Below are positions 48,514-63,133 of a stretch of 64,000 nucleotides of DNA, one piece after another (position 1 is the stretch's first letter; the number at the start of each line of letters is the position of its first letter). This DNA comes from Psychroserpens sp. SPM9 (GTDB lineage Bacteria; Bacteroidota; Bacteroidia; Flavobacteriales; Flavobacteriaceae): the NCBI RefSeq assembly GCF_025153525.1, contig NZ_JANZNR010000008.1, positions 62,001 through 126,000 of the forward strand. Reading direction: 5' to 3'. The notes under the pieces were generated by a model. That model ran no database searches. It was given only the letters and a program-made list of their open reading frames with translations, and had not been told where the DNA came from. The translations under genes were made by a program, and so were the position numbers.

Positions 48514-50655
48514 TTAAAAGTTTAAATTATATAATAGTTTTAAGTAATATGATCGTCCGTAGCCCAGTAAAAGAGAGCTGTTATTTGAGGCATGAGTTCC
48601 TCCAGATGTAGCATTGCTAACATTCACATTCGTCACATCTAATAGATTTCGTGCGCCAAGGGTGAGGTCTATGGTATTATCGAAAAATGATTTTTTAACC
48701 GAAGCGTCAAGCCAACTGTAGGTATCTGTTGTCGCTTTAGAGAATAATGAGTTACCATTTTCATCAGTGTCAGTGGCCACATAATTTTGCTGTTCCCCAT
48801 TATATTTAAGAAGGATGGAAAAGGACGTATTCCATTTTTTATGGAAATAGGAAGCACTGGTATTAATTTGAAAATTGTATAAATAGTCATCTTCTCCATG
48901 AACTTCATCTTCATTAATTCTTGAAATTCCTTGAAGCGTCGCGCCTAAATTGAAAGAAAATCTGTTAGTTTTTAAGCTGTTATCGAACGTGATGCCTATT
49001 AATTTAAATCGGTCAATATTGATAAATTGATATTGTAGAGGTGTCGTGTTTACAATAGCTAAATCAATTTTATCTGAAAGATTGATATAACTGAATTTTA
49101 AATTGTTTACGAGTGCTATATCATCAAACCAGCTTCTCTTTTTGAGGTTGATAAATGCTGAAAATCCATTTTCGGGATTGAGATTTTCATTACCCTGAAC
49201 ATCATGATTGGAGTCTACAAAGTAATAGTACAATTCCTCAAAATTTGGAACTCTGTAAGAGGTGCCTATATTAGCGCGAAGTTCAAAGCCATCAGCCATT
49301 AAATAGCGGGTACTCAATGATCCTAAAAGTTTAGAATCAAACTGTGAATTGTATTCATATCTAATACCTGGTCGGATAGAAAAATTGTTTGAGAGTTTTA
49401 ATTCTGAAGAACCAAATAAAGCGATATTGCTTTGTGTGTTTGTTTTATCTTCTTGAGTGACCTCACCAGAAGCTTGTGTGTCAAAACCTTCAATATATCT
49501 TGCTTCATAGCCTAATTGAAAATTGTAGAAATCACTTTTGACTAAATTTCCGATGGTCCCTTTAGAAAATAAAACTTTGCTCGATTGATAGGTGTCTTCG
49601 GTTTCGTTACTTCTTTCTTGCGATAAAATAAAGTAGTTAAATTCGTTTAAGTTGCGTTTTTGTTGCTGATAAGACAGTGCAATATTATAATTGGCACCCG
49701 AGTTTAAGTGACCATCAATATTTAAATTGTTGAGCCATCTATTGGTTCTAAAAATGCGATCTGTAGCCGATGGATTACTGGTTTGTGTTTCGGTATCAAT
49801 ATTAGCTCTAACGGCTGCATCGTAGTAATTTAAACGTTCGTTAAAGTATTCGAATTTATAAAACAGTCTGAAGTTTTTAGCTTTATAATTGATTAAAGCA
49901 TTGGTCACTATTTGATGCTTTGGTAGCCATTCATAACCTCGTAAACCATCATTTTGATAATAATCGCGACCTTGTCTGTTATCAAAAAAACCAGCAAAAT
50001 CATTTCGGTTAAAACCTATTTTTGCAAACCAATTATCAGTAATATTATGAGCGATATTTATGGATTGAATATGTCTTCCTTCATCAAACCATGCGTACTC
50101 ATCACTAACAGTTTCTTCTTGTATGTAAGTTTGGATTTTCCAATCGTCACTAGTTGATTTTTTAGTAATAATATTTATGACTCCAGAGACAGCATTCGCA
50201 CCATATTCAACACCCATGGAGCCTTCAACAATTTCGATACGTTCAACATCATCTAGATTTATTTGGGTTAAATCGATGTTATTTCCTAAGCCATTATCAC
50301 TTACTAATGGTACATTATCTATAAGAATATTAAAGTATTGTGCATCTAATCCGAAGAATGAAATGGTTGATTTTCCGGTTTGAGAATTCGGAATAATCGT
50401 AAGGTTAAGATTAAAGTTTAATAGGTCGGCTAAGTTATTTGCGGCTTGTTGATCGATTTGTTTTCGGTTAATCACAATCACATTATGAACTGATTTTTTT
50501 ATAGACTGCGGATTATATTGTCCTGTAATCACTACCTCTTCTAATTTTTCGAGTAGCACAGAATCTTTAGCTACCTCTTTGATTTCCTGAGAAAAAGAAA
50601 ATCCGATAATAAAAAGTGAAAAATAAATACTGAAATTATTTTTATTTAGACTCAT
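48514..50655 (-). CDS. hmuR: TonB-dependent heme/iron receptor paired with HmuY
   Basis: 713 residues: signal peptide (1-22), plug domain (about 40-155; SVHNVIVINRKQIDQQAANNLADLLNFN, GMGVEYG-like box in EGSMGVEYGANAVSGVINIITKK), and barrel. Near residue 480 the order YRVP, then His in SNHDVQ, then NPEN resembles the FRAP-His-NPNL signature of heme receptors. No carboxypeptidase-regulatory domain. With HmuY downstream, heme uptake is the best call, though other TonB receptors can have similar ELYY/GNENLNPE stretches. The start lies in an operator-rich region, with a -7 box at 50674-50681. Confidence 0.88.
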   Translation of the reverse strand: MSLNKNNFSIYFSLFIIGFSFSQEIKEVAKDSVLLEKLEEVVITGQYNPQSIKKSVHNVIVINRKQIDQQAANNLADLLNFNLNLTIIPNSQTGKSTISFFGLDAQYFNILIDNVPLVSDNGLGNNIDLTQINLDDVERIEIVEGSMGVEYGANAVSGVINIITKKSTSDDWKIQTYIQEETVSDEYAWFDEGRHIQSINIAHNITDNWFAKIGFNRNDFAGFFDNRQGRDYYQNDGLRGYEWLPKHQIVTNALINYKAKNFRLFYKFEYFNERLNYYDAAVRANIDTETQTSNPSATDRIFRTNRWLNNLNIDGHLNSGANYNIALSYQQQKRNLNEFNYFILSQERSNETEDTYQSSKVLFSKGTIGNLVKSDFYNFQLGYEARYIEGFDTQASGEVTQEDKTNTQSNIALFGSSELKLSNNFSIRPGIRYEYNSQFDSKLLGSLSTRYLMADGFELRANIGTSYRVPNFEELYYYFVDSNHDVQGNENLNPENGFSAFINLKKRSWFDDIALVNNLKFSYINLSDKIDLAIVNTTPLQYQFINIDRFKLIGITFDNSLKTNRFSFNLGATLQGISRINEDEVHGEDDYLYNFQINTSASYFHKKWNTSFSILLKYNGEQQNYVATDTDENGNSLFSKATTDTYSWLDASVKKSFFDNTIDLTLGARNLLDVTNVNVSNATSGGTHASNNSSLLLGYGRSYYLKLLYNLNF

Positions 50656-50665
50656 TCTTGATTAG
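50641..50665. promoter_or_regulatory. Half site of the iron-type operator at the receptor start
   Basis: TTTATTTAGAC (50641-50651) on the + strand covers codons 2-5 of the receptor; the second half of the 25-bp motif is poor here, so this is a weak candidate. Confidence 0.25.
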
Positions 50666-50673
50666 ATTTGCTG

Positions 50674-50681
50674 CAAATATA
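50674..50681 (-). promoter_or_regulatory. -7 box of the receptor-HmuY operon
   Basis: TATATTTG on the - strand fits TAnnTTTG, 18 bp from the start; the 25-bp operator begins 4 bp upstream of it. Confidence 0.6.
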
Positions 50682-50685
50682 AATA

Positions 50686-50710
50686 CTTATTTTAATTCAG
50701 TCTAAATAAG
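50686..50710. promoter_or_regulatory. Iron-type operator site 1, divergent hmuR/DUF6607 region
   Basis: 25-bp dyad CTTATTT-N11-AAATAAG centred at 50698; perfect 7-bp arms. Read on the - strand it begins CTTATTTAGA. It shares 17 fixed positions with sites at 55914, 55987 and 62967. It overlaps the space upstream of the receptor -7 box and could block both divergent promoters. Confidence 0.6.
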
Positions 50711-50759
50711 AACAAATAAATTTCAATTTTTTTTAATCACAAAAAACAAGCACTTAAAA

Positions 50760-51665
50760 ATGAAACAAATAGCAGGTTTACTCGTATTAATTTTAACAGG
50801 TTCATCACTTGGAAATGCTCAAAACAAAAAGGAATTGGATAAAGAAGCCATTAAAAATATGTGTGGTTGTTTTGAAGTGACCTTCAATTTTGCAGAAACA
50901 TTTTCTTTCAGCCAGGATTCACTTTATAAGCCTTCTAAAACTAAAGTTGACAAAGGTTTAGAGTGGGCACAATTAATAGAAGATACCGATAACAAATTAT
51001 CAATTCAGCATTTATTACAGGTTGGAAACCCTTCAAATCCTCACATCGTTAAACACTGGCGACAAGATTGGTTGTTTGAAAATACCGACTTCTACATGTT
51101 TAACGGTGATAATGCCTGGCTTTTTGAAACTAAAAAGCCTTCAGATGTAAAAGGACAATGGACTCAAAAGGTGTTTCAGGTAGATGATAGTCCGCGTTAT
51201 GAAGGTTCTGCAACTTGGGTTCATGTGGATGGAAAAAGCTACTGGGAAAATACGACACCAGCACCTTTGCCGAGGCGTGAATATACGAAGCGTAGTGATT
51301 ATAATGTAACGCTAAGAGGTAACAGACATGAAATTACAACTTATGGTTGGGTACATGATCAGGATAATGATAAAGTGATTCGTGAAGATGGAAAAGACGA
51401 TGTGATTTTAGCCAAAGAAAAAGGCTATAATACGTATGTAAAAGTTGATGACAGTAGATGTCAGGCTGCAGCAGATTGGTGGAAAGAACATCAAGATAAG
51501 TGGGGAAATGTCAGACATAAATGGGATGAGGTTTATAGCAGGAATCAGGATTTGACTTTAGCTTCTAAAGTCGACAATAAATTGTTGTTTAAGTATTTGT
51601 TTTCTGATGACATAAGTGAAGAAAAAGATATTGATAGTGTCATTGAATCCTTTGTAAAAAAATAA
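50760..51665 (+). CDS. DUF6607 family exported protein
   Basis: 301 residues: signal peptide (1-21) and a mature part with KNMCGCFEVTFNFAETF near residues 35-50, YKPSKTKVDKGLEWAQLIED, and many Trp residues (LVWQDWLFENT, WTHVDG, WWKEHQDKWG). I match this to the DUF6607 family with moderate confidence; its function is not established. First gene of an operon with the ankyrin, DUF2271 and PepSY-reductase genes (gaps 1, 10 and 11 bp). The operator at 50686 lies in its promoter region. A periplasmic accessory role in iron or heme handling is inferred from context only. Confidence 0.78.
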   Translation: MKQIAGLLVLILTGSSLGNAQNKKELDKEAIKNMCGCFEVTFNFAETFSFSQDSLYKPSKTKVDKGLEWAQLIEDTDNKLSIQHLLQVGNPSNPHIVKHWRQDWLFENTDFYMFNGDNAWLFETKKPSDVKGQWTQKVFQVDDSPRYEGSATWVHVDGKSYWENTTPAPLPRREYTKRSDYNVTLRGNRHEITTYGWVHDQDNDKVIREDGKDDVILAKEKGYNTYVKVDDSRCQAAADWWKEHQDKWGNVRHKWDEVYSRNQDLTLASKVDNKLLFKYLFSDDISEEKDIDSVIESFVKK

Positions 51666-51666
51666 G

Positions 51667-53145
51667 ATGAAGCAGTTTAAAATATATACCATCCTTATGG
51701 TACTTTTAATAAGTGCCTATGGTTTTTCTCAAGATAATATTTTTTTAAGTCGCGATTATTGGAGTACTAATCCTTCCATTGAAAGTATCGATTTAAAAAT
51801 TAAAGAAGGTCACGATATCGCTGAGGCCAATAGCAACAATTTTGATGCTGTGGTCTATGCTATCCTTCAAAATGCCCCAAATACTACCATTAAATATATT
51901 CAGTCTAAAAAAGGAAATGAGGTCAATAAGCTCACACATGATGGGAGAACTTACATCTTTTGGGCGGCTTATAAAGGAAATGTCGAGTTTATGAAATATC
52001 TGCTTAGTAAAGGCGCAAAAACAGATTTGACAGATGATAAAGGCTACACAATTTTGAATTTTGCAGCATCGTCTGGGCAACCAAACACTGAAGTCTATGA
52101 TGTATGTCTGGCCAATGGCGCTGATCTTAAAAAAGACCTGACTCCAGATGGTGCTAATGCTTTACTGTTAGCTGCTCCAAGCGATAAGAACTTTAAGCTG
52201 ATTGATTATTTTCAATCGAAAGGTTTAGAGCTTAATAGCGTAGATAATGAGGGTAATGATGCATTTAATTATGTGGCTAAGACTGGAAATATAAAGCTTA
52301 TGAATACGCTACGCGATAATGGCGTCAAAGGAAACCATCAGGCCTTTTTGTTTGCTGCCTATGGAACACGAGGAAAAACAAATGGCGTCGAAGTTTATAA
52401 GTATTTAGAAACTGTAGGTTTAGATCCAAATATATCAAATGGTGAAGGTATATCGCCATTACATATTGTTGCGTCTCGAAGTAAAGATCTCGAATTGATT
52501 AATTATTTAATAGACAGAGGTTTGGACGTAAGCACCAAAGATTTCAATGGTAATACTGCTGTTATGAACGCTGCTTCAAGAAATACTATTGATGTGGTTA
52601 AAATAATGGTTGCTAATTTAAAGCCCATTAATACGACCAATAAAAAAGGACAGTCGGCTTTATCGTTAGCCGTTCAAAACAATACGTCAGATGTTGTCGC
52701 ATTTTTGCTTGACAAGGGTTACGATACCAAGATTGTTGATGCTGAAGGCAATAATTTAGCCTACTATTTGATTCAATCCTATTCAGATAGAACGAAATCC
52801 GAATTTTCTAAAAAGCTTGAGCTATTAAAGGCCAATCATGTTGATGTATCTGCTGTTCAAAAGAGTGGAAACACCTGGTTTCATCTGGCGGTTGAAAAGC
52901 AGAGTATGGCGATTCTGAACTTAGCACTACAAATGAATCAGGATATCAATGCTAAAAACAATGAAGGGTATACAGCTCTACATTTGGCTGCGATGAAAGC
53001 AAAAGATGATACGGTTCTTAAGTTTCTTTTAGAACACGGAGCAAAGTCAACTATAGTCACAGACTTTGAAGAAACAGCTTACGATTTAGCTAAAGAAAAT
53101 GAGTTACTTCAACAGCAAAATATTTCAGTAGAATTTTTAAAATAG
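51667..53145 (+). CDS. Exported ankyrin-repeat protein
   Basis: 492 residues: signal peptide (1-22, ending YGFSQ) and about ten ankyrin repeats that fill the rest (typical cores DGRTYIFWAAYKGNVEFMKYLLSKGA, EGISPLHIVASRSKDLELINYLI, EGYTALHLAAMKAKDDTVLKFLLEHGA). Ankyrin repeats bind other proteins. It starts 1 bp after the DUF6607 stop. A periplasmic ankyrin scaffold next to a TonB-linked redox operon is unusual; I infer it holds the DUF6607/DUF2271 proteins together or docks them to the receptor. Confidence 0.93.
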   Translation: MKQFKIYTILMVLLISAYGFSQDNIFLSRDYWSTNPSIESIDLKIKEGHDIAEANSNNFDAVVYAILQNAPNTTIKYIQSKKGNEVNKLTHDGRTYIFWAAYKGNVEFMKYLLSKGAKTDLTDDKGYTILNFAASSGQPNTEVYDVCLANGADLKKDLTPDGANALLLAAPSDKNFKLIDYFQSKGLELNSVDNEGNDAFNYVAKTGNIKLMNTLRDNGVKGNHQAFLFAAYGTRGKTNGVEVYKYLETVGLDPNISNGEGISPLHIVASRSKDLELINYLIDRGLDVSTKDFNGNTAVMNAASRNTIDVVKIMVANLKPINTTNKKGQSALSLAVQNNTSDVVAFLLDKGYDTKIVDAEGNNLAYYLIQSYSDRTKSEFSKKLELLKANHVDVSAVQKSGNTWFHLAVEKQSMAILNLALQMNQDINAKNNEGYTALHLAAMKAKDDTVLKFLLEHGAKSTIVTDFEETAYDLAKENELLQQQNISVEFLK

Positions 53146-53155
53146 AAAACATCAT

Positions 53156-53641
53156 ATGAAAAATTTACGTTTAATACTGCCTTTATGTATTGTCGTTTTC
53201 GGACTCATGTCTTTTAAAACCTTAACCGAATCATCAAAGTATAAATGCATGATTCAAATGAAAAACTATTCAGGTGAAGGTGCTTATATCGTCATTTCTT
53301 TAATCAATCCTGAAGGTGAATATGAGAAAACCTTGTATGTGAAAGGTGATGATGATGAATGGTATAATACGGTAGAATCCTGGTGGGATTTCTACGGAAA
53401 AAGACGAACAGATATCGATGCGATTACTGGAGCTACAATTAGTGGTGGAGAACGCGCAGTTTCTGTGATAGAAATTGATGATGCTCAACTTGATAAAGGC
53501 TATAAACTCAGATTTGAATCGGCCGTTGAAGATCAGGAATATTATAAAAACGATGTTGAATTTGACCTAACATCTCAAAATGTAAAAAGCAAAATTGAAG
53601 GGAAAGGCTTTATTAGATACATACGAATGATGCCTCAATAA
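53156..53641 (+). CDS. DUF2271 protein with flavinylation-like motif
   Basis: 161 residues: signal peptide (about 1-23) and a DUF2271 domain (about 28-160; YKCMIQMKNYSGEGAYIVISLINP, YEKTLYVKGDDDEWYNTVESWW, VEFDLTSQNVK). Residues 88-94 read DAITGAT, the same form as the D-x-x-[ST]-G-A-T threonine site that ApbE flavinylates in NqrC, RnfG and FMN-bind proteins. If used, Thr94 would carry FMN outside the inner membrane. The next gene is a PepSY-flavodoxin-reductase, a fitting electron donor. No apbE lies in this window. Confidence 0.87.
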   Translation: MKNLRLILPLCIVVFGLMSFKTLTESSKYKCMIQMKNYSGEGAYIVISLINPEGEYEKTLYVKGDDDEWYNTVESWWDFYGKRRTDIDAITGATISGGERAVSVIEIDDAQLDKGYKLRFESAVEDQEYYKNDVEFDLTSQNVKSKIEGKGFIRYIRMMPQ

Positions 53642-53652
53642 ATCTATTGCGA

Positions 53653-55845
53653 ATGACCATGTCTATCTGGAGATTCAGTCATTTTTTACTGGCTTTAATA
53701 TCTTCTGTTTTTATTGTTTTAGCTTCGGTTACTGGTATGATTTTGGCTTTTGAGCCCATTTCAAATCAGCTGCACTCTTATGGCTTTAACGATGAGGTTA
53801 CAATCGCTACAACTATTGAAAATTTACAAGGCCGCTATGATGAAATTATTACTATCGAAACCGATGAAAATGATTTTGTCGTAGCTTCTGTAATAACCAA
53901 AGCGGGTGAAAGTGAGACCTTTTATATCAACCCTGAAACGGGAGAAAAGTTAGGTGATCTTATAGAAAAAGCACCACTATTTAGTTTTGCGACTAATTTG
54001 CATCGTTCCCTGTTTTTAAAATCAACAGGTCGTTTTATTGTTGGTTTAGTGTCCTTTTTTCTGGTACTAATGGCTATTTCTGGCATCATGCTCATCCTAA
54101 AACGACAAGGCGGAATACGTCGTTATTTTTCTAAGGTTGTCAACGAAAATTTCGAGCAATATTATCATGTTATTTTTGGGCGATGGCTTTTAATTCCTAT
54201 ACTTATTGTTGCATTGACAGGTGTGTATTTATCCTTGGAGAAATTTTCAATGCTTCCAGAAACTCATCTATCACATGAATACCCAGAGACGGAAGATGCT
54301 GAACCTGATACGATTTCCATTTCAGATTTTGAGGTTTTTAAGACCTTAAAACTTGCCGATGTAAACAGTCTGGAGTTTCCTTTTTCTGAAGCTGTTGACG
54401 ATTATTTCTTTATCAAACTGAAAGATCGGGAGTTGTTGGTCAATCAATATTCTGGTGTGATTATAAGTGAGCAAGATTATCCATTAGTCACTTTGTTGTC
54501 ACAATGGAGTTTATTGCTGCATACAGGACAAGGGACGATTTTATGGTCTGTTGTATTGTTTCTGGTTTGTGTGGCTTTACTGTTTTTTATCTATTCGGGT
54601 TTTGCAATGACATTAAGCCGTCCTAAAAAGACTAAGGTTTCAAGAAATAAGTTTACCAAAGATACTTCAGAGTATATCATTCTTGTTGGCTCAGAAACAG
54701 GAAGCACTTTTAGTTTTGCAAGCTTATTTTATGAGGCCTTGATTGCTCAAGGTAAAACGGTGTTTATGGCTTCAATGAATGCTTATGCCAGTTATAAAGA
54801 AGCCAGACATCTTTTTATTTTCACATCTACCTATGGTGAAGGTGATGCACCGTCAAATGCCAGTAAATTTGAAGATTTAGTAAAACGAACCGCTCAAAAT
54901 CATACGATAGATTACGCTGTCTTAGGTTTTGGTTCGTTACAATATTCAGATTACTGTAAATATGCTGAAGACGTCGATGCCTTATTGACATCACATAAAA
55001 ACTTTCAGAAGAAACTGGAAGTGTTTAAAATTAATAATCAGTCGTTTGATGCTTTTCAGAACTGGATACAACAATGGGAAAAAGCTTATGGTCTCACACT
55101 TCAGATTAAACCACCTAAATTGATTCCAGATTCAAAATACACGAGACAATTCAGAGTTGTTGAACGTACCGAATTAAATGAAGATGCTACTTTTATGTTG
55201 CGATTACAACCAATAAAAAAAGTTGTATTTCAGTCTGGAGATCTGTTAGCGTTTCGACCAGATGACTCTCAAGCTGAACGTCTGTATTCTATCGCTAGAA
55301 TAGGAGATGAGGTGTTGTTGAGTATCAAGAAACATGAACAAGGCTTATGTTCTTCCTATTTAAGTCAACGACATACAGGTGATGTTATTACAGCAACCGT
55401 TCAACCCAATCCTGAGTTTCATCTATCGAAATCTTCAAACACCATTTTGATTGCCAATGGCACAGGAATAGCACCATTTTTAGGGATGATTCACGACCCA
55501 AAAACTAAAAAGAACCGTCATTTGTTTTTAGGCTTAAGAACCCAACAATCCTTGCAACTCTATTCAAGATATATTGATCAGGCTTTAACAAATCATCATT
55601 TAAAAACATCTCAAGTGGCATTTTCACAAGACAATTCAGTAAAAGTTTATGTACAAGATTTGATCAAACAACACGATGAGTTTATTGCTAATCATCTTAA
55701 AAACGGCGGCATCGTTATGATATGCGGATCTATAGTTATGCAAAATCAACTATTTGAGGTTCTCGATGCTATTTTGCAAGCCAGATTAAACCTGTCCATT
55801 CAATACTTTCAATCCCGAAGTCAAATCAAAACCGATTGCTATTAA
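53653..55845 (+). CDS. PepSY membrane protein fused to flavodoxin and ferredoxin-NADP-reductase-like domains
   Basis: About 730 residues from ATG 53653 (a TTG at 53647 is less likely). Order: PepSY-type membrane domain with four helices (about 8-30, 125-148, 170-195, 285-310), flavodoxin domain (about 335-475; ILVGSETGSTFSFASLFYE and STYGEGDAPSNASKF bind FMN), and a reductase module (about 490-730; RLYSIARIGDEVLLSIKK for FAD, NGTGIAPFLGMIHD and CGSIVMQNQ for NAD(P)H). It should move electrons from cytoplasmic NAD(P)H across the inner membrane. In this operon the probable acceptor is the DUF2271 protein, and the final target iron or heme. Last gene of the DUF6607 operon. Confidence 0.9.
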   Translation: MTMSIWRFSHFLLALISSVFIVLASVTGMILAFEPISNQLHSYGFNDEVTIATTIENLQGRYDEIITIETDENDFVVASVITKAGESETFYINPETGEKLGDLIEKAPLFSFATNLHRSLFLKSTGRFIVGLVSFFLVLMAISGIMLILKRQGGIRRYFSKVVNENFEQYYHVIFGRWLLIPILIVALTGVYLSLEKFSMLPETHLSHEYPETEDAEPDTISISDFEVFKTLKLADVNSLEFPFSEAVDDYFFIKLKDRELLVNQYSGVIISEQDYPLVTLLSQWSLLLHTGQGTILWSVVLFLVCVALLFFIYSGFAMTLSRPKKTKVSRNKFTKDTSEYIILVGSETGSTFSFASLFYEALIAQGKTVFMASMNAYASYKEARHLFIFTSTYGEGDAPSNASKFEDLVKRTAQNHTIDYAVLGFGSLQYSDYCKYAEDVDALLTSHKNFQKKLEVFKINNQSFDAFQNWIQQWEKAYGLTLQIKPPKLIPDSKYTRQFRVVERTELNEDATFMLRLQPIKKVVFQSGDLLAFRPDDSQAERLYSIARIGDEVLLSIKKHEQGLCSSYLSQRHTGDVITATVQPNPEFHLSKSSNTILIANGTGIAPFLGMIHDPKTKKNRHLFLGLRTQQSLQLYSRYIDQALTNHHLKTSQVAFSQDNSVKVYVQDLIKQHDEFIANHLKNGGIVMICGSIVMQNQLFEVLDAILQARLNLSIQYFQSRSQIKTDCY

Positions 55846-55913
55846 GGGGATTTAATACCTGTCTATATTTTAAGTACACTGTCTTAATTACTGATATATA
55901 GAGCGCTAGAATT

Positions 55914-55938
55914 TTTATTTAAATTTAATCTAAATAAA
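55914..55938. promoter_or_regulatory. Iron-type operator site 2, upstream of the DUF4856 promoter
   Basis: TTTATTT-N11-AAATAAA, perfect 7-bp arms centred at 55926. It ends 2 bp before the -33 element of the DUF4856/imelysin promoter. Confidence 0.6.
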
Positions 55939-55940
55939 GT

Positions 55941-55970
55941 TTGAATATTTAATACTGTGTTTTATTTTTG
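55941..55970 (+). promoter_or_regulatory. Promoter of the DUF4856-imelysin operon
   Basis: TTG (55941-55943), 19-bp spacer, TATTTTTG (55963-55970): a full Bacteroidetes consensus promoter, lying exactly between two operator copies. Confidence 0.75.
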
Positions 55971-55986
55971 CACTCGAATTACATTA

Positions 55987-56011
55987 ATTATTTGTAACAA
56001 GTCTAAATAAA
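55987..56011. promoter_or_regulatory. Iron-type operator site 3, downstream of the DUF4856 transcription start
   Basis: TTATTT (55988-55993)-N11-AAATAA (56005-56010); same spacing as the other sites. It would sit about 10-35 bp into the transcribed leader, where a bound repressor blocks elongation. Confidence 0.55.
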
Positions 56012-56032
56012 AACAATACAACCTAAAATCAA

Positions 56033-57229
56033 ATGAAAAGATTAGCTCTAAGTTTATGTGTCATAGCAAGTATATTCACATCGTGTTCAAGTGATGACGA
56101 TAATAATACTGGTCAACAAATTGAAACACCAATCACCTACAGTTTTGAAAGAAATGGAGAATCTACAGTAAATTTTGGTGGTCAAACCACAAGAATTGCC
56201 ATGGCTGGAGAATTAGCATCTGCCTTATTAGATAACACCAATACGGAAGCTCAATTAGATGGTATGTTTGCTCATGTTGAAGGGGAAGCTGATTTTTCTG
56301 ATGCTGATTTAAACGCTTCTGATAAAAGTATCCGTTCGAAAGTTGCTGCTTCTAAAGATTTTTTCTCTGCAAATGCGACACTTTCAGCTGCAATCAAAGC
56401 TGAATTTGACACATGGATTGAAGATCAGGCGACAACGGTGTTTCCAAACTGGGATGCCACTGCTACTGCTGGTTCTGCAGGACAATTGCAACAAGCTGGA
56501 GGTGGTTCGATACGTTATATTAACGGAAAAGGTTTTGAATTAAATCAGGTAGTCGCTAAAGGATTAATTGGTGGTTTAATGACCGATCAAATATTAAATA
56601 ATTATTTAAGTCCAGCGGTGTTAGATGAAGGTTCTAACATCGAAAATAATGACAATGATATTGTTGAAGACGGTAAAACCTATACAACCATGGAACACAA
56701 ATGGGATGAAGCTTATGGGTATCTTTATGGTGCTGAAGCTGATGCGACAATGCCAACACTTGGAGCCGATAGTTTCTTGAATAATTATTTAAACCGATTA
56801 GAAAACGACGAAGATTTTGCAGGCATTGCACAAACTGTTTTTGATGCATTTAAATTAGGTCGTGCAGCAATTGTTGCCAAAGATTATGATTTAAGAGATG
56901 CACAAGCTGAAATCATTAAAGCTCAAATTTCAAAAGTTAGTGCTGTAAGAGCTGTACACTATTTACAAGCTGGAAAACAAAAACTAGCCGAAAATGATAT
57001 GGCGAGCGCTTTTCATCAGCTATCTGAAGGTTTAGGGTTTATCTATAGCCTTCAATTTACAAGAGAACCAAATTCTACCCAACCGTATTTTACGAATGCA
57101 GAAGTGACAGCATATATGAATACGCTTTCTGAAGGTAACGGATTTTGGGATGTTACTGCTGAAACTTTAGATACCATATCTCAAGAAATTGCTGATCGAT
57201 TCGATTTTACAGTCGAAGCAGCTAATTAA
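56033..57229 (+). CDS. DUF4856 lipoprotein
   Basis: 398 residues. Lipobox FTSC (Cys18) then SSDDDNN. Mature part is DUF4856: YSFERNGESTVNFGGQTTRIAMAGEL, GKGFELNQVVAKGLIGGLMTDQILNNYLSP, and EHKWDEAYGYLYGAE, all typical. DUF4856 is commonly encoded beside imelysin in Bacteroidetes and is thought to be related in role, though no function is established. The operators on both sides of its promoter tie it to the iron regulon. Confidence 0.9.
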   Translation: MKRLALSLCVIASIFTSCSSDDDNNTGQQIETPITYSFERNGESTVNFGGQTTRIAMAGELASALLDNTNTEAQLDGMFAHVEGEADFSDADLNASDKSIRSKVAASKDFFSANATLSAAIKAEFDTWIEDQATTVFPNWDATATAGSAGQLQQAGGGSIRYINGKGFELNQVVAKGLIGGLMTDQILNNYLSPAVLDEGSNIENNDNDIVEDGKTYTTMEHKWDEAYGYLYGAEADATMPTLGADSFLNNYLNRLENDEDFAGIAQTVFDAFKLGRAAIVAKDYDLRDAQAEIIKAQISKVSAVRAVHYLQAGKQKLAENDMASAFHQLSEGLGFIYSLQFTREPNSTQPYFTNAEVTAYMNTLSEGNGFWDVTAETLDTISQEIADRFDFTVEAAN

Positions 57230-57246
57230 TATAAATTATTAGAAAT

Positions 57247-57278
57247 GCCTTAGTGTTCATTAGGTTGAACTCTAAGGC
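57247..57278 (+). terminator. Hairpin between DUF4856 and imelysin genes
   Basis: GCCTTAG (57247-57253) pairs with CTAAGGC (57272-57278), and GTTCA/TGAAC extends the stem inside. A new -7 box follows at 57284-57291, so it may attenuate read-through and separate the two genes. Confidence 0.5.
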
Positions 57279-57283
57279 TTGAT

Positions 57284-57291
57284 TATCTTTG
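57284..57291 (+). promoter_or_regulatory. -7 box of the imelysin gene
   Basis: TATCTTTG fits TAnnTTTG, with TTG at 57265-57267 (16-bp spacer). Confidence 0.55.
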
Positions 57292-57312
57292 CAAACTGAA
57301 AATAAATTAAGG

Positions 57313-58428
57313 ATGTTAAAAAAAGTTGTTTTAAGCGTTTTCACAATAGCTTTGTTAGTGGCCTGCTCATCGTCTGATGATTCCAGCGGAAGCACTAACG
57401 ATAATTTCAATCGCCAGGCGATGTTAACTAATTGGGCTGATGATATTATCATTCCAGCGTTTCAAGATTTAAGTTCAGATTTAGCAAGCTTAACCTCACA
57501 AAAAGAGACGTTTATAGCAACACCTAATCAAACTAATCTCGACCTTTTGAGAGCTGCTTGGTTGGAGGCCTACAAAACTTGGCAGTATGTTGAAATGTTC
57601 AATATTGGTAAAGCGGAAGAAATTAACTACGCATTTCAAATGAATATTTATCCGACTAACGTCAACGATATTCAAAACAATATCAGTTCTGGAACTTATG
57701 ATTTAGCTAATGTTAATAATAACGATGCTGTTGGTTTTCCTGCTGTAGATTATATGTTATATGGCATCGCCGATAGTGATGTCGAGATTTTAAATGCCTA
57801 TACAGCTGCTGCAAATTTTGAAGCTAATAAAACCTATTTATCTGATTTGGTGGATCAAATGCAAGCGTTAACGACGACAGTTTTAAATGACTGGACAACG
57901 TCTTATAGAAATACCTTTGTAAATAGTACAGCAAATACAGCGACCAGTGCGACTAATAAATTGACGAATGACTTTATTTTTTATTACGAAAAAGGACTTC
58001 GTGCTAATAAGTTTGGTATTCCTGCAGGTGTGTTTTCATCAACACCTTTAAATGATAAAGTTGAAGCGTTTTACAATAAAGAGGTGTCTAAAGATTTAGC
58101 ATTAGTGGCTTTACAGGCAGTACAAGATTTTTTTAATGGTAAAGCTTATGGTAGTTCAGTGACCGACGAGAGTTTTGCGTCGTATTTAGAGTATTTAAAT
58201 ACCATTAAAGATGGTGAAGATTTGAGTACGCTAATCAACAATCAGTTGAATACTGCCAGAACCAAAATTCAAATATTAAATACTAATTTCTCGCAGCAAG
58301 TAGAAACAGATAATACTAAAATGTTAGAGGCTTATGACGAACTGCAACGTGCTGTTGTACTTTTAAAAGTTGATATGATACAAGCCATGAATATTAGTGT
58401 CGATTTTGTAGATGCAGATGGCGATTAA
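57313..58428 (+). CDS. Imelysin family lipoprotein (iron-regulated envelope protein)
   Basis: 371 residues from ATG 57313; an in-frame TTG at 57289 lies in the -7 box, so I reject it. Lipobox VAC (near Cys18), then SSSDDSSGS. The imelysin domain follows: LLRAAWLEAYKTWQYVEMFNIGKAEE, then NNDAVGFPAVDYMLYGI. The family's GxHxxE iron-site motif is altered to GFPAVD here, as in many Bacteroidetes members. Imelysins are helical-repeat, iron-induced-by-starvation envelope proteins (not active peptidases). Second gene of the DUF4856 group; a strong terminator follows. Confidence 0.92.
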   Translation: MLKKVVLSVFTIALLVACSSSDDSSGSTNDNFNRQAMLTNWADDIIIPAFQDLSSDLASLTSQKETFIATPNQTNLDLLRAAWLEAYKTWQYVEMFNIGKAEEINYAFQMNIYPTNVNDIQNNISSGTYDLANVNNNDAVGFPAVDYMLYGIADSDVEILNAYTAAANFEANKTYLSDLVDQMQALTTTVLNDWTTSYRNTFVNSTANTATSATNKLTNDFIFYYEKGLRANKFGIPAGVFSSTPLNDKVEAFYNKEVSKDLALVALQAVQDFFNGKAYGSSVTDESFASYLEYLNTIKDGEDLSTLINNQLNTARTKIQILNTNFSQQVETDNTKMLEAYDELQRAVVLLKVDMIQAMNISVDFVDADGD

Positions 58429-58452
58429 TTGCAGATAACATAATACAAACAG

Positions 58453-58490
58453 GATTCTTTAGTGGTGTGCCGCTAAAGAATCTTTTTTTA
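58453..58490 (+). terminator. Strong intrinsic terminator after imelysin
   Basis: 13-bp stem GATTCTTTAGTGG / CCGCTAAAGAATC (one G-T pair), 4-base loop, then seven T. Confidence 0.88.
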
Positions 58491-58533
58491 TACCAATATC
58501 TCAAACAGACTAAAATATACAACACATTATAAG

Positions 58534-59901
58534 ATGGTTGCAAAACTAAAATCCTATGTCAATACTACTACAAGTGCAGCACCTTTGGCTGTGTTTCGTG
58601 TGTTGTTTGGACTCATGATGTGTTTTAGCATTATCAGGTTTTGGTATCATGGCTGGATAGAAAAACTGTATATCGCACCAAATTTTCATTTTAAATATTA
58701 CGGATTTGAATGGTTGAAATCACTTGGATCTTATAACTACCTATTATTTGCAATCTGCGGAATCGCAGCAATTTTTGTAGCATTAGGTTTTAAATACAGA
58801 ATCGCCATTGTTACTTTTTTCCTCAGTTTTACTTACATAGAGCTCATTGATAAAACCACCTATTTAAATCACTACTATTTTATAAGTGTCTTGAGTTTTT
58901 TGATGATTTTCCTGCCTGCAAACGCTCAGTTTTCTTTAGATAATTTACTTCGGAAGAAAAGCTACACTCAAATTCCCAGATGGTGTATAGACAGTATTAA
59001 GTTGCTTTTAGGCATTGTCTATTTTTACGCAGGAATTGCAAAAATCAATAGTGATTGGCTGTTTAAAGCCATGCCTTTAAAAATATGGTTGCCATCAAAA
59101 TATGATATACCATTTATTGGTAATAATTTGATGCAACAAGACTGGTTTCACTATGCGATGAGCTGGTCTGGAATGCTGTATGATTTGTCGATTCCATTTT
59201 TATTACTCTTCAGAAAAACACGTACGATGGCATTTGTTTTAGTCGTGTTCTTTCATGTGTTTACGCGTATTTTATTTCCAATTGGGATGTTTCCGTATAT
59301 CATGATTGTTGCCACTTTGATTTTCTTTGATGCCAGTACGCATGAGAAAATTATTACACTTATAAAGCGATTACTAAGTCCTTTCCGAAGCCAACTAAAA
59401 ACACCTCAACCACAAGAGATCTATCCATTTACTTATCTGAAGCCCATCAAAACAATTCTCATTGTATTCTTTGTATTTCAACTCCTAATTCCGTTTCGAT
59501 ATCTTTTGTATCCAAACGAATTGTTCTGGACCGAAGAAGGCTACCGTTTTTCATGGCGCGTGATGTTGATGGAAAAAGCTGGATTAACCACATTTAAAAT
59601 CGCTAATGCTGAAACCGGACATTATTTTTATGTGGATAATACCGATTTTTTAACGCCTTTTCAGGAAAAGCAAATGAATTTTCAACCAGATTTTATTTTA
59701 GAATATGCCCATTTTTTAGGAGATCATTTTAAATCACAAGGCCATGAAAATATTCAAGTTTTTGCCGATAGTTATGTTGCGCTTAACGGAAGGTTGAGTC
59801 AGCAATACATTGACCCAACCATAGATTTGTATCAAGAAAAAGAATCATTTAAACCCAAACACTGGATTTTACCATTTAAAGATGACATTAAAGGATTTTA
59901 A
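58534..59901 (+). CDS. HTTM (vitamin-K-carboxylase-like) membrane protein
   Basis: 455 residues: HTTM domain (about 10-270) of four or more membrane helices with APLAVFRVLFGLMMCFSIIRF, LSFLMIFLPANAQFSLD and LLLGIVYFYAGIAKINSDWL, then a longer C-terminal part (about 300-455) with a WTEEGYRFSWRVMLMEKAG stretch. HTTM proteins are bacterial relatives of vitamin-K-dependent gamma-carboxylase; their activity is mostly undefined. The gene overlaps the next receptor gene by 20 bp, so the pair is strongly coupled. I infer a role in modifying or assembling that receptor or its ligand. Confidence 0.9.
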   Translation: MVAKLKSYVNTTTSAAPLAVFRVLFGLMMCFSIIRFWYHGWIEKLYIAPNFHFKYYGFEWLKSLGSYNYLLFAICGIAAIFVALGFKYRIAIVTFFLSFTYIELIDKTTYLNHYYFISVLSFLMIFLPANAQFSLDNLLRKKSYTQIPRWCIDSIKLLLGIVYFYAGIAKINSDWLFKAMPLKIWLPSKYDIPFIGNNLMQQDWFHYAMSWSGMLYDLSIPFLLLFRKTRTMAFVLVVFFHVFTRILFPIGMFPYIMIVATLIFFDASTHEKIITLIKRLLSPFRSQLKTPQPQEIYPFTYLKPIKTILIVFFVFQLLIPFRYLLYPNELFWTEEGYRFSWRVMLMEKAGLTTFKIANAETGHYFYVDNTDFLTPFQEKQMNFQPDFILEYAHFLGDHFKSQGHENIQVFADSYVALNGRLSQQYIDPTIDLYQEKESFKPKHWILPFKDDIKGF

Positions 59902-62308
59902 ATTTCACATCGTATTATTTTTATTGAGCTTACCTGTATATGCTCAGCATCAAGTTTCAGGTTATATCACTCACGGAACAACAAATGAAGCCATTAGCAA
60001 TGTTGAAGTTTACGATAAGGTTTCCGGCTTATTAGCAACATCTAACGACCAAGGCTATTATGAGTTGTCTTCAGGTAAAACGGAGCTCACCTTAGTGTTT
60101 TATAAGTCAGAATTTGAAATTCTGGAACTCAAGCAAACTCTGGATAGCAATAAGAATCTTAATGTGGTTTTATTACCCTTACAGGAAAACCTTTCAGAAA
60201 TCATAATAAAAGCTAGAAGCGCCAAAATTTTTGAGTTGAACAGGTTAAAAGATGTAGAAGAAACGGCCATCTATGCTGGTAAAAAAACAGAAGTAGTACT
60301 TGTCGATCAATCGCTTGCTAATCTGGCGACTAATAATGCCCGACAAATTTATAATCAAGTTGCAGGATTAAATATTTATCAAAATGATGATGCCGGATTA
60401 CAGCTCAATATTGGTGGTCGTGGTTTAGATCCTAATCGTACAGCAAATTTTAACACGCGACAAAACGGATATGATATTAGTGCCGATGTTTTAGGCTATC
60501 CTGAAAGTTATTACACGCCAGCTGCTGAAGGTTTAAAAGAAATCCAGGTGATTCGAGGTGCCGCTTCTTTACAATATGGTACTCAATTTGGAGGGCTCAT
60601 TAACTTTAAAACCAAAGCACCAAATCCAAATCAACCTATCGAATTAATTACTAGAAACACACTTGGGAGCTATGGTCTATATACCAATTTTACGAGTCTA
60701 AGCGGTACGAAAGGAAAATTTAGTTATTATACTTATTTCAATTATAAAACAGGTGATGGATTCAGACCTAATTCGGAGTTTGAATCTAAAAATGTATTTG
60801 CACATTTAGGCTATCAGTTTAATGAGAACACTAAGCTTTCCGCAGAATTCACGCATTTATATTACCTCGCACAGCAAGGTGGTGGTTTAACAGATGCGCA
60901 GTTTAATGAAGATGCCTTTCAAAGTAACCGAGAACGTAATTGGTTTAAGGTTAACTGGTTGTTGTATAACCTGAAATTAAGTCATAAATTTTCAGATAAA
61001 ACCAATGTGACGTTTAATGCTTTCGGACTCAATGCATCACGTGATGCGCTTGGGTTTAGAACCAATCGTGTCGATCAGGTAGATCCCAATAATGAGCGTG
61101 ATTTAATTAAAGGGGATTTCAAAAATTTTGGTGCTGAAGCACGTGTGTTAAGTCGTTATAAGTTATTCGGAAAGGATGCGACTTTTCTTATCGGGTCTAA
61201 GTTCTACAAAGCAAATAATACCGAACAGCAAGGTCCAGGATCTGATGGACGTGGTCCTGATTTTAATTTTTATAATGACGACTTTCCGAATTATCCAGCA
61301 CAGTCACAATTTGATTTCCCTAATCTGAATGTCGCCTTATTTGGTGAGCACATTTATTATGTGAATGATCAGTTTTCGATTACACCCGGATTTAGATTTG
61401 AATACATTAAAACCGAAAGTGAAGGCTTTTATAAGCGTATAAATACCGATGCAGCTGGTAATGTTATCTTCGAGGAAACCGTGACCGACAATCGTGATTT
61501 TAAGCGCGATTTTGTATTACTCGGATTGGGTTTAAGCTACAAACCCTCAACACGCTTAGAGATTTATGGAAATATTTCTCAAAATTACCGCTCGGTGACC
61601 TTTTCTGACATAAATATCAATAATCCTGCTTTTGCTGTAAATCCGGATATTACTGATGAAAAAGGATTTACTGCTGATATTGGTTTTAGAGGGAACTACA
61701 AAAACCTAGTATCGTATGATTTGGGTGTTTTTGCCTTGTTTTATAATGGAAGAATTGGATTTATTCAAAAGTCATTTGATGATGGACGCGTTATTAGTGA
61801 ACGTGGTAATGTTGGTGATGCACGAATGTTTGGGGTTGAATCTTTGGTTGACTTTAACTTGAAGAAAATTTTTAAAATGAATAATGATTTTAGTAGTAAC
61901 TACTTTATCAATGCGTCATTCATTTCTTCAGAATACACAGCGTCGCAACAAGCAGGAGTAGAAGGAAATCAGGTTGAGTTTGTACCTGATGTCAATATAA
62001 AAACAGGTGTTAAATTTGGATATAAAAACCTTCTCGCCAATGTGCAGTATTCGTATTTAAGTCGGCAATTTACAGATGCAACCAACTCTGAAGATGCTAA
62101 TTTAAGTGGTGTGATTGGTGCCATTCCTCAGTATGATATTTTAGATGTCTCATTATCGTATACCTATAAGCGTTTTAAGCTAGAAGCTGGAATCAATAAT
62201 GTCTTAGACGAAACGTATTTTACACGTAGAGCTACAGGTTATCCAGGTCCTGGAATTATACCTTCTGCTCCAAGAAACTGGTACACAACACTTCAAATTA
62301 AACTCTGA
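59882..62308 (+). CDS. FecA-like TonB-dependent receptor
   Basis: 808 residues: signal peptide (1-20), carboxypeptidase-regulatory-like domain (about 24-100), plug (about 120-245) with the FecA-type blocks NIGGRGLDPNRTANFNTRQNGYDI and EIQVIRGAASLQYGTQFGGLINFKTK, then a barrel that ends in WYTTLQIKL. This class of plug is typical of ferric citrate-type receptors. No STN domain, so it does not signal through FecR. Its neighbours (imelysin, DUF4856, HTTM, ferritin) support an iron substrate. Confidence 0.92.
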   Translation: MTLKDFKFHIVLFLLSLPVYAQHQVSGYITHGTTNEAISNVEVYDKVSGLLATSNDQGYYELSSGKTELTLVFYKSEFEILELKQTLDSNKNLNVVLLPLQENLSEIIIKARSAKIFELNRLKDVEETAIYAGKKTEVVLVDQSLANLATNNARQIYNQVAGLNIYQNDDAGLQLNIGGRGLDPNRTANFNTRQNGYDISADVLGYPESYYTPAAEGLKEIQVIRGAASLQYGTQFGGLINFKTKAPNPNQPIELITRNTLGSYGLYTNFTSLSGTKGKFSYYTYFNYKTGDGFRPNSEFESKNVFAHLGYQFNENTKLSAEFTHLYYLAQQGGGLTDAQFNEDAFQSNRERNWFKVNWLLYNLKLSHKFSDKTNVTFNAFGLNASRDALGFRTNRVDQVDPNNERDLIKGDFKNFGAEARVLSRYKLFGKDATFLIGSKFYKANNTEQQGPGSDGRGPDFNFYNDDFPNYPAQSQFDFPNLNVALFGEHIYYVNDQFSITPGFRFEYIKTESEGFYKRINTDAAGNVIFEETVTDNRDFKRDFVLLGLGLSYKPSTRLEIYGNISQNYRSVTFSDININNPAFAVNPDITDEKGFTADIGFRGNYKNLVSYDLGVFALFYNGRIGFIQKSFDDGRVISERGNVGDARMFGVESLVDFNLKKIFKMNNDFSSNYFINASFISSEYTASQQAGVEGNQVEFVPDVNIKTGVKFGYKNLLANVQYSYLSRQFTDATNSEDANLSGVIGAIPQYDILDVSLSYTYKRFKLEAGINNVLDETYFTRRATGYPGPGIIPSAPRNWYTTLQIKL

Positions 62309-62320
62309 TGGGATGTACAA

Positions 62321-62337
62321 TTTAGAGTCAGTCTTAA
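62321..62337. promoter_or_regulatory. Weak operator-like dyad upstream of ferritin
   Basis: TTTAGA-N5-TCTTAA. It has the core of the iron-type operator but not the outer AAATAA arm. Confidence 0.25.
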
Positions 62338-62373
62338 TTTTACTGTGCGTTATTTTTCCTTTTAAAAGTTCAT

Positions 62374-62381
62374 TATCTTCG
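62374..62381 (+). promoter_or_regulatory. Near-match -7 box of ferritin
   Basis: TATCTTCG differs from TAnnTTTG at one position, 17 bp before the start codon. Confidence 0.4.
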
Positions 62382-62397
62382 TAAAAAACAATGATTT

Positions 62398-62901
62398 ATG
62401 AATGCTACTATTGAAACATTATTGAATAATCAAATCAAATACGAAGCGCAAGCATCTATGCAATACCTAGCCATGGCTTCATGGGCTGATGCCACAGGGT
62501 ATAACGGTGTTGCTGATTTCTTTTATAGCCAATCAGAAGAAGAACGCGTGCACATGACCAAGTTGGTGAAATTTGTGAACGAAAGAGGCGGAAAGGTAAG
62601 TATCCCAAAATTAGAAGAACCTAAAGCGACTTACAAAGGACTTAATGAATTATTTGAAAAGTTTTTGGAAAGCGAAATGTTTGTAACAGAGCAAATTAAT
62701 CATGTGATTTATGAATGTTTACAACATAAAGATTATAATGTTCATAATTTTATGCAATGGTACGTTACCGAGCAGCTTGAAGAAGAAGCTATGGCCAGAA
62801 CTTTACTCGATAAATTAAATATAATCGGTAATGATAAATCGGGACACTACTTGTTTGATCGTGATATAATTACCATCGCAGCGGCACAAGATAACGCTTA
62901 A
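62398..62901 (+). CDS. ftnA: Ferritin (FtnA type)
   Basis: 167 residues. Ferroxidase ligands are all visible: Glu in IKYEAQASMQYL (residue 17), the EExxH pair in SEEERVHM (Glu50 region and His53), and the second-site Glu residues in the VTEQLEEEAMA helix (about 126-136). It stores iron as a ferric mineral in a 24-subunit shell. It directly follows the iron-uptake genes and precedes the small Cys protein; a strong terminator ends it. Confidence 0.95.
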   Translation: MNATIETLLNNQIKYEAQASMQYLAMASWADATGYNGVADFFYSQSEEERVHMTKLVKFVNERGGKVSIPKLEEPKATYKGLNELFEKFLESEMFVTEQINHVIYECLQHKDYNVHNFMQWYVTEQLEEEAMARTLLDKLNIIGNDKSGHYLFDRDIITIAAAQDNA

Positions 62902-62924
62902 ACTTACTGTTAATAACTAACTCG

Positions 62925-62957
62925 AAAAAGATGCTATGATTAGCATCTTTTTTTTAT
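62925..62957 (+). terminator. Ferritin terminator
   Basis: 12-bp stem AAAAAGATGCTA / TAGCATCTTTTT with a 4-base loop and a T-run. Confidence 0.85.
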
Positions 62958-62964
62958 AAATTTG
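62957..62964 (+). promoter_or_regulatory. -7 box of the small Cys-rich gene
   Basis: TAAATTTG fits TAnnTTTG; it immediately precedes the operator at 62967. Confidence 0.55.
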
Positions 62965-62966
62965 CA

Positions 62967-62991
62967 TTTATTTAGAATAAATTAAAATAAT
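62967..62991. promoter_or_regulatory. Iron-type operator site 4, overlapping the small gene's start
   Basis: TTATTTAGA (62968-62976) then AAATAA (62985-62990) at the same spacing as sites 1-3; 21-22 of 25 bases equal sites 1 and 2. It runs from just after the -7 box to the start codon, a repressing position. Confidence 0.6.
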
Positions 62992-63133
62992 GCAAGACGA
63001 ATTGACCATAGAAAATGCTCCAGTAATTATCACTTCATGTGTGTTGTATTGTGACCTCAATAAGAAATCAAAGTGCTGTAAAAAGTATAAGAAAAAAGGG
63101 AAAACCAATTGTAGACGTTGCCCAAGACTTTAG
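62990..63133 (+). CDS. Small six-cysteine basic protein, unrecognised
   Basis: 47 residues, starting ATG 62990 and ending TAG at 63131-63133. The N-terminal half is mixed (QDELTIENAPVIITSC), the C-terminal half very basic with Cys at 17, 21, 29, 30, 41 and 44 (C-x3-C-x7-CC-x10-C-x2-C). No signal peptide is seen, so it is probably cytoplasmic. The Cys pattern suggests a zinc, iron or Fe-S site. It has its own -7 box with the iron-type operator over its start, directly after ferritin. I do not recognise the family; an iron-regulated metal-binding or nucleic-acid-binding role is inferred. Confidence 0.72.
   Translation: MQDELTIENAPVIITSCVLYCDLNKKSKCCKKYKKKGKTNCRRCPRL

Follow-up and report, generated by a model that had tools for sequence, protein, structure and literature searches.

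What reads the palindromic repeat that recurs beside iron-related genes in a 64,000-nt stretch of Psychroserpens sp. SPM9 DNA (contig NZ_JANZNR010000008.1, positions 62,001 to 126,000; hereafter the window, 35% GC), and what happens at the promoters next to it? The initial annotation had described four copies of a 25-bp operator and proposed a repressor of the Fur or DtxR family. Our analysis indicates that the repeat is very probably the Psychroserpens Fur box, at which iron uptake genes would be repressed. Aligned by their symmetry, the sites define a palindromic operator of 23 bp, TTATTTAGAnTnAnTCTAAATAA, the axis falling on base 12, and its copies in the window are as follows:

50642..50664, minus strand: fifth operator, 3/20 mismatches, over the hmuR start codon and 17 nt downstream of the start of the -7 box
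50687..50709, minus strand: operator of the hmuR/DUF6607 divergon, 2/20 mismatches, starting 28 nt before the -7 box of hmuR
55915..55937, minus strand: operator before the DUF4856-imelysin-HTTM-TonB run, 1/20 mismatch, starting 48 nt before the -7 box
55988..56010, minus strand: second operator of the DUF4856 promoter, 3/20 mismatches, starting 25 nt after the start of the -7 box
62968..62990, plus strand: operator over the start of a small Cys-rich open reading frame (ORF), 2/20 mismatches, 11 nt after the start of the -7 box

All four sites of the initial annotation were present, three on the minus strand and one on the plus strand, with exactly the same 17 fixed positions in common. The palindromic repeat is therefore real, but its natural unit is 23 bp centred on base 12 rather than 25 bp, and the three-mismatch copy at 50642-50664 had been overlooked; this copy has counterparts in the same-genus genomes G001, G002, G003, G005 and G009 (among the matches listed). 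The claim that such a cluster is not a product of chance also stood up, as the motif first proposed gave, at ≤1 mismatch, five strand matches at four places in the window, whereas 100 dinucleotide shuffles gave no match at all. With the symmetric form TTATTTAGA-n5-TCTAAATAA (≤2 mismatches) the same four places were found, and again none in 100 shuffles. When the spacing of two 9-nt arms was varied from 0 to 8, spacing 5 alone yielded a cluster with few mismatches, and the other spacings were set aside.

The inner 19 bp of the consensus are identical, at the fixed positions, to ATTTAGAATTATTCTAAAT, which was published in 2017 as the Fur box of Riemerella anatipestifer, a predicted 19-bp palindrome accompanied by an electrophoretic mobility shift assay (EMSA) of four promoters (PMC5609570). 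That paper was the sole match to the exact 19-mer in a literature search. In the same species, rhuB carries a near-identical box tested by EMSA (PMC10986502), and rhuH is derepressed once a Fur box or fur is removed, the sequence of the box not being displayed in the accessible text (PMC11967795). The Psychroserpens genome has two Fur-family genes, of which the main one (L039:1474-1935, minus strand; PF01475, 94.4 bits) matches Fur proteins of solved structure, among them the dual regulator 4raz with E 1.5e-20, keeps the HDH motif and lies in the gene order fur-purA, an order also described for Flavobacterium psychrophilum (PMC9331221).

The 3.81-Mb genome was scanned with the reversed pattern as control. 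The 18-position palindrome at ≤2 mismatches gave 8 sites, 4 of them in the window, versus 2 for the control, and a 20-position pattern in which T11 and A13 were also required gave, at ≤3 mismatches, 13 sites versus 2. A looser pattern without T11 and A13 showed, at three mismatches, no genome-wide excess (21 versus 23 control), which counts against the repeat being other than chance. Five of these 13 lie in the window, two elsewhere, and six at feoA-feoB (L002), actA (L003; presumably the gene of the cytochrome subunit of alternative complex III, Pfam showing cytochrome domains), sdhC (L004; Pfam Sdh_cyt at 19.7 bits, below the cut-off, with a next frame that resembles a flavoprotein), nqrA (L005), mrp (L012, an Mrp-type iron-sulfur (Fe-S) carrier) and araC/hemA (L014). 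Thus 11/13 sites are found at iron, heme, Fe-S or respiratory genes; the remaining two, one within a glycosyltransferase-like frame (L260) and the other before a further gene (L261), have no evident iron link as judged from open frames, and are as numerous as the control matches (two). Sites are concentrated at iron uptake genes and overlap their promoters, and the iron-type regulon proposed from the window genes was extended by the scan to feoAB, sdhC, nqrA, actA, mrp and araC/hemA.

Conservation was assessed in the best 80 of 364 DUF4856 loci (59–97% identity; each GTDB species was represented by one genome in the scan), which come from Psychroserpens, Winogradskyella, Gelidibacter, Polaribacter, Aquimarina, Kordia, Maribacter and others. 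A site was present within 250 bp upstream of DUF4856 in 80/80 loci at ≤3 mismatches and in 72/80 at ≤2, with two sites in 68/80. Over the 19,855 positions of these upstream stretches there are 148 sites, compared with 65 over the 1,627,820 other positions. For the other genes we counted homologues with a resolved start in these loci and a site ≤200 bp upstream, and found it before DUF6607 (10/10), HmuR (9/9) and the Cys-rich ORF (3/3), before the imelysin gene in only 4/72 homologues, all from Kordia, and never before HTTM (0/77), the second TonB receptor (0/77) or ferritin (0/8). The sites therefore mark particular gene starts rather than AT-rich gaps in general. In the Kordia loci (L090, L093, L099 and L120) the box upstream of the imelysin gene is additional, and that gene is perhaps a separate transcription unit. 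The Cys-rich ORF itself (62990-63133) was found in 3/80 loci, with the operator over its start each time.

The distribution of the motif across the phylum also points to Fur. In 247 genomes searched for the motif, for PF01475 (Fur) and for PF01325 (DtxR), with strong Fur defined as E<1e-20, a line set after the data had been seen, and with counts uncorrected for relatedness, the 206 strong-Fur genomes contained 1158 motif versus 323 control matches, and the 41 genomes with weak or no Fur 37 versus 52. Within the family, order and class of Psychroserpens (61 rows), 55/55 strong-Fur genomes had the motif (628 versus 143 control) and the other six gave 6 versus 6; among the remaining 132 genomes, the 123 with strong Fur gave 481 versus 179 and the nine others 27 versus 41. 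The same division is seen inside a single genus of a distant family (genus g50, family f24), where the motif was found in 12/13 genomes with strong Fur (32 motif versus 1 control) and in 3/26 with weak or no Fur (4 versus 5; Fisher p 1.4e-6). Fourteen f24 sites were inspected in genomes with Fur: two lie ahead of feoAB (L226, L229), three next to feoB or between feoB and flavodoxin (L215, L218, L221), three ahead of porin-like genes (L217, L224, L227; one over the Pfam cut-off), and six are ambiguous. The inspected sites of the three g50 genomes with the motif but no Fur match adjoin a cold-shock gene (two) or bacA (one) and are taken as chance, with L220 judged by its likeness to L216 and a second match in G242 lying outside the inspected set. 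In genus g55, Fur is present in 15/15 genomes and the motif in 9/15. Overall the motif tracks Fur across genomes, with families f23 and f41 as exceptions; Fur binding and an iron response are predicted for this Psychroserpens. As a separate observation, six of the seven sampled genomes of family f11, in the same class (G025, G050, G108, G132, G143 and G167), lack strong Fur and show no motif excess.

Metal repressors of the DtxR/MntR family, too, read AT-rich palindromes close to genes for iron and manganese, and PF01325 matches are found once in the Psychroserpens genome (E 2.5e-10) and in 214/247 genomes of the phylum, 177 of them over the cut-off. A reader from this family is nevertheless highly unlikely. 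Among the class rows the motif does not follow DtxR, being present in 54/56 genomes with it and 5/5 without (p 1.0); strong-Fur class genomes without DtxR at E<1e-6 keep the motif (G020, 11 motif versus 2 control; G058, 4 versus 1; G247, 3 versus 0; G255, 5 versus 1), whereas the five class genomes in which DtxR is present and strong Fur is not stay at background (5 versus 6). In g50 there is a weaker link, with the motif in 4/4 genomes with DtxR and 11/35 without (p 0.017), but all four also have strong Fur, and sites are found in eight of the nine strong-Fur g50 genomes that have no DtxR match at E<1e-6. The core of the operator, furthermore, equals a Fur box for which an EMSA has been published. 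Fur fits better than DtxR as the reader, so that of the two families named by the initial annotation the first is supported by the motif excess with strong Fur in 247 genomes, and the second is not, in the 115 genomes compared.

Several results weigh against Fur as the reader, in addition to the post hoc line and the uncorrected relatedness mentioned above. No site is present in 6/15 strong-Fur genomes of g55, and families f23 (15 genomes, 69 versus 65) and f41 (7 genomes, 28 versus 38) show no excess of the motif despite strong Fur. With these exceptions in f23, f41 and g55, the box is therefore not universal in the phylum, and the Fur of f23 and f41 may read another sequence (pooled, their 22 genomes contain 97 motif and 103 control matches). 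An E. coli-type box has been quoted for R. anatipestifer (PMC7976709), and in Bizionia argentinensis an imelysin-like protein, TonB receptors and Fe2+ uptake genes are all lower after deletion of mliR, as are a Rieske protein and a cytochrome c (PMC9478572), which raises the possibility that the operator is read by MliR, a MerR-like iron-responsive activator. The chance of this is slighter still than for DtxR, because it leaves both the identity with the Riemerella Fur box and the link with Fur unexplained; moreover, the words palindrom, recognition sequence and EMSA are absent from the accessible main text of that paper, and no binding site was found there (PMC9478572). Chance palindromes, which an AT-rich genome and the behaviour of the looser pattern could suggest, have a practically negligible probability given the empty shuffles and the site in all 80 DUF4856 loci, and are refuted for the window sites.

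With Fur as the probable reader, the effect of the box may depend on its place in the promoter. A sigma-70 promoter scan was discarded, since promoters of this group have different -7/-33 elements, and we used instead the -7 box, for which the consensus TAnnTTTG, at -12 to -5 of the start, has been described in F. psychrophilum (PMC9723704). The promoter elements and genes of the window that belong to the operators are:

48514..50655, minus strand: TonB-dependent receptor 'hmuR', substrate putative (Pfam Plug and TonB barrel)
50674..50681, minus strand: -7 box TATATTTG of hmuR
50760..51665, plus strand: DUF6607 protein (PF20311, E 1.2e-100)
55963..55970, plus strand: -7 box TATTTTTG of the DUF4856 run (consensus TAnnTTTG)
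56033..57229, plus strand: DUF4856 protein, first gene of the run (PF16148, E 1.6e-155)
57289..58428, plus strand: imelysin-like protein (PF09375, E 2e-29)
58534..59901, plus strand: HTTM / gamma-carboxylase-like membrane protein (PF05090, E 7e-78)
59882..62308, plus strand: TonB-dependent receptor, siderophore type (PF00593; TIGR01783 at 127 bits, below the cut-off of 223.5)
62957..62964, plus strand: -7 box TAAATTTG of the small Cys-rich ORF
62990..63133, plus strand: 47-aa Cys-rich ORF (no Pfam or NCBIfam match)

As first annotated, the DUF4856 promoter is flanked by one site on each side, its -7 box at 55963 lying between them, and the operator at 55915..55937 adjoins the -33 TTTG (55940-55943) on its upstream side. 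In the DUF4856 loci the -7 box lies between two sites (≤4 mismatches) in 69/80, the upstream site starting 48–49 nt before it in 60/69 and the other 24–25 nt after it in 33/69, and the paired boxes are 60–74 bp apart in 68/72 pairs. The feoA and mrp sites lie 9 nt and 7 nt downstream of the -7 box, respectively, and the sites at hmuR, DUF4856, the Cys-rich ORF, feoA and mrp all cover the promoter. When iron is plentiful, iron-loaded Fur would bind the box, and at hmuR, the DUF4856 run, feoAB and the small Cys-rich ORF, where it covers the -33/-7/start region, would keep RNA polymerase off, the -7 box being flanked by two boxes at DUF4856 and hmuR; iron shortage would then free the uptake promoters.

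A different arrangement is found at the respiratory operons, for which 30 loci each of actA, sdhC and nqrA were taken as the best matches of 60 genomes searched. A site with ≤5 mismatches, a loose line (loci without one have 6–8 mismatches at best), is present ahead of actA in 30/30, sdhC in 28/30 and nqrA in 19/30 loci. The distance from the start of the site to the -7 box is 66–67 nt in 30/30 actA loci, 65–68 in 26/30 for sdhC and 64–67 in 17/30 for nqrA; at all three genes the box thus mostly stands ahead of the -33 element, within a narrow range of distances, centred near -66 to -68 and clear of that element. The spacers of sdhC and nqrA are poorly conserved (mean information 0.6–0.7, versus 1.2–1.4 in the motif; 10, 8 and 11 sequences), and it is therefore the distance that is conserved, whereas the actA spacer is itself conserved (1.19, 26 sequences), so that descent alone could hold the distance there. 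Upstream of actA (L181-L210), the stretch from the Fur box to the -7 box contains a second block, about TTAAC...TAACATTTCTAAAATCGACTT, which is kept across genera and is possibly the site of another regulator.

A scan of 60 genomes (59 genera) for a single exact half-site combined with a -7 box, which is blind to sdhC-type sites as these conserve the other arm, gave 126 pairs versus 83 for the reversed control. Forty-one of the pairs were at actA, all at 66–67, and 14 at nqrA, ten of them at 65–67, but the 71 others showed no peak (9 at 65–67, with about 7 expected), and the upstream geometry is therefore confined to few operons. The fixed upstream geometry is real for actA, sdhC and nqrA, and is not general. 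The 11/30 nqrA loci without a box at ≤5 mismatches are natural cases in which the loss of Fur input could be tested.

Fur is a direct activator in other bacteria, such as Helicobacter and Neisseria, in which its box lies upstream of the promoters of iron-using genes. The box that mostly lies 64–68 bp upstream of the -7 box at actA, sdhC and nqrA suggests direct activation, in which the upstream position would allow the polymerase to be contacted from upstream at act, sdh and nqr. Judged from the promoter sequences, we tentatively propose, at somewhat less than even odds, that one Fur box has opposite effects at two promoter positions in Flavobacteriaceae, repressing uptake where it covers the promoter, and, through iron-loaded Fur, directly activating respiratory enzymes rich in iron (alternative complex III, succinate dehydrogenase and Na+-NQR) where it is centred about 66–68 bp upstream of the start. 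The 64–68 spacing is common to three unrelated promoters and is held over the poorly conserved sdhC and nqrA spacers. In iron-poor R. anatipestifer, sdhCAB declines, together with chain G of NADH-ubiquinone oxidoreductase and a quinone-binding subunit of cytochrome c oxidoreductase (PMC5609570). Direct activation would also fit the unsuccessful deletion of fur in F. psychrophilum; an effect on purA is another explanation put forward by the authors of that study (PMC9331221).

There is close to an even chance, however, that the upstream box at actA, sdhC and nqrA does not activate, being a remnant, the site of an unrelated partner or a site of weak repression, and that the promoter-covering boxes alone matter. 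In 13/30 nqrA and 4/30 sdhC loci no site stands at the fixed distance from a -7 box (one of these four has a 6-mismatch site at 68), and the absence of a peak in the 71 other pairs speaks for the same view. In the R. anatipestifer fur mutant, sdhCAB still falls at low iron (-2.47 to -2.79, versus -1.01 to -1.46 in what we read as the wild type, blank cells making the columns of Table 2 uncertain; PMC5609570). This drop, with larger ratios than in the wild type, argues against Fur being required there, and bears on activation if the R. anatipestifer sdhC has the box. A literature search, mostly without full texts, found no published Fur box at act, sdh or nqr in flavobacteria.

Regarding the genes behind the boxes, the label 'hmuR' used in the initial annotation is supported by Pfam as far as a TonB-dependent receptor is concerned, but the best NCBIfam receptor models are far below their cut-off. 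The DUF4856 protein scores 35 bits against the NCBIfam FEA1-related lipoprotein (cut-off 250). Downstream of DUF6607 (51667-55845) are genes for an ankyrin-repeat protein, a DUF2271 protein and a PepSY/flavodoxin-type reductase, which may be in one operon with DUF6607. Outside the window, the box at L014 (1501-1523; G000:C11:880672-880694) covers the start of a gene for an AraC-type regulator, divergent from hemA, and Fur may therefore steer heme synthesis via that regulator; the nearest -7 box of hemA is 152 nt from the start of the motif.

These data provide a concrete, scannable Fur box for marine Flavobacteriaceae, and the conserved operator places DUF4856, DUF6607, HTTM and the small Cys-rich ORF, which have no assigned function, in the iron regulon. 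The distribution suggests that this box extends to further classes in the phylum, although not to all families. If the upstream sites do activate respiration, Fur would be a direct iron-sparing switch in Flavobacteriaceae. The enterobacterial counterpart in iron sparing is the small RNA RyhB, and activation by Fur would do likewise by transcription.

In comparison with Fur activation in Helicobacter and Neisseria, the box at the respiratory operons is likewise upstream, but differs in its fixed distance of 64–68 bp at three operons, here a matter of sequence only. As with MliR of B. argentinensis, an iron regulator of a marine flavobacterium has imelysin and TonB receptors among its targets, but MliR is, unlike Fur, a MerR-like activator (PMC9478572). 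Like the E. coli-type Fur box GATAATGATAATCATTATC, the operator is an odd-centred palindrome read by Fur (PMC5609570, PMC7976709), but the arms of the former are GATAAT units and those of the 11-1-11 site here are TTAGA. The two papers differ on the Fur box of R. anatipestifer, and the sites described here match only the one from 2017. The closest resemblance is to that R. anatipestifer box, with -7/-33 promoters and with HmuR and a neighbouring gene among the box-bearing genes of Table 5 (PMC5609570); the Psychroserpens box is extended to 23 bp by an outer TT/AA, and Table 5, unlike the sites found here, contains no sdh, nqr or complex III gene. The kind of box is thus already known from a relative in the Flavobacteriales, and what is new is its fixed upstream geometry at respiratory operons.

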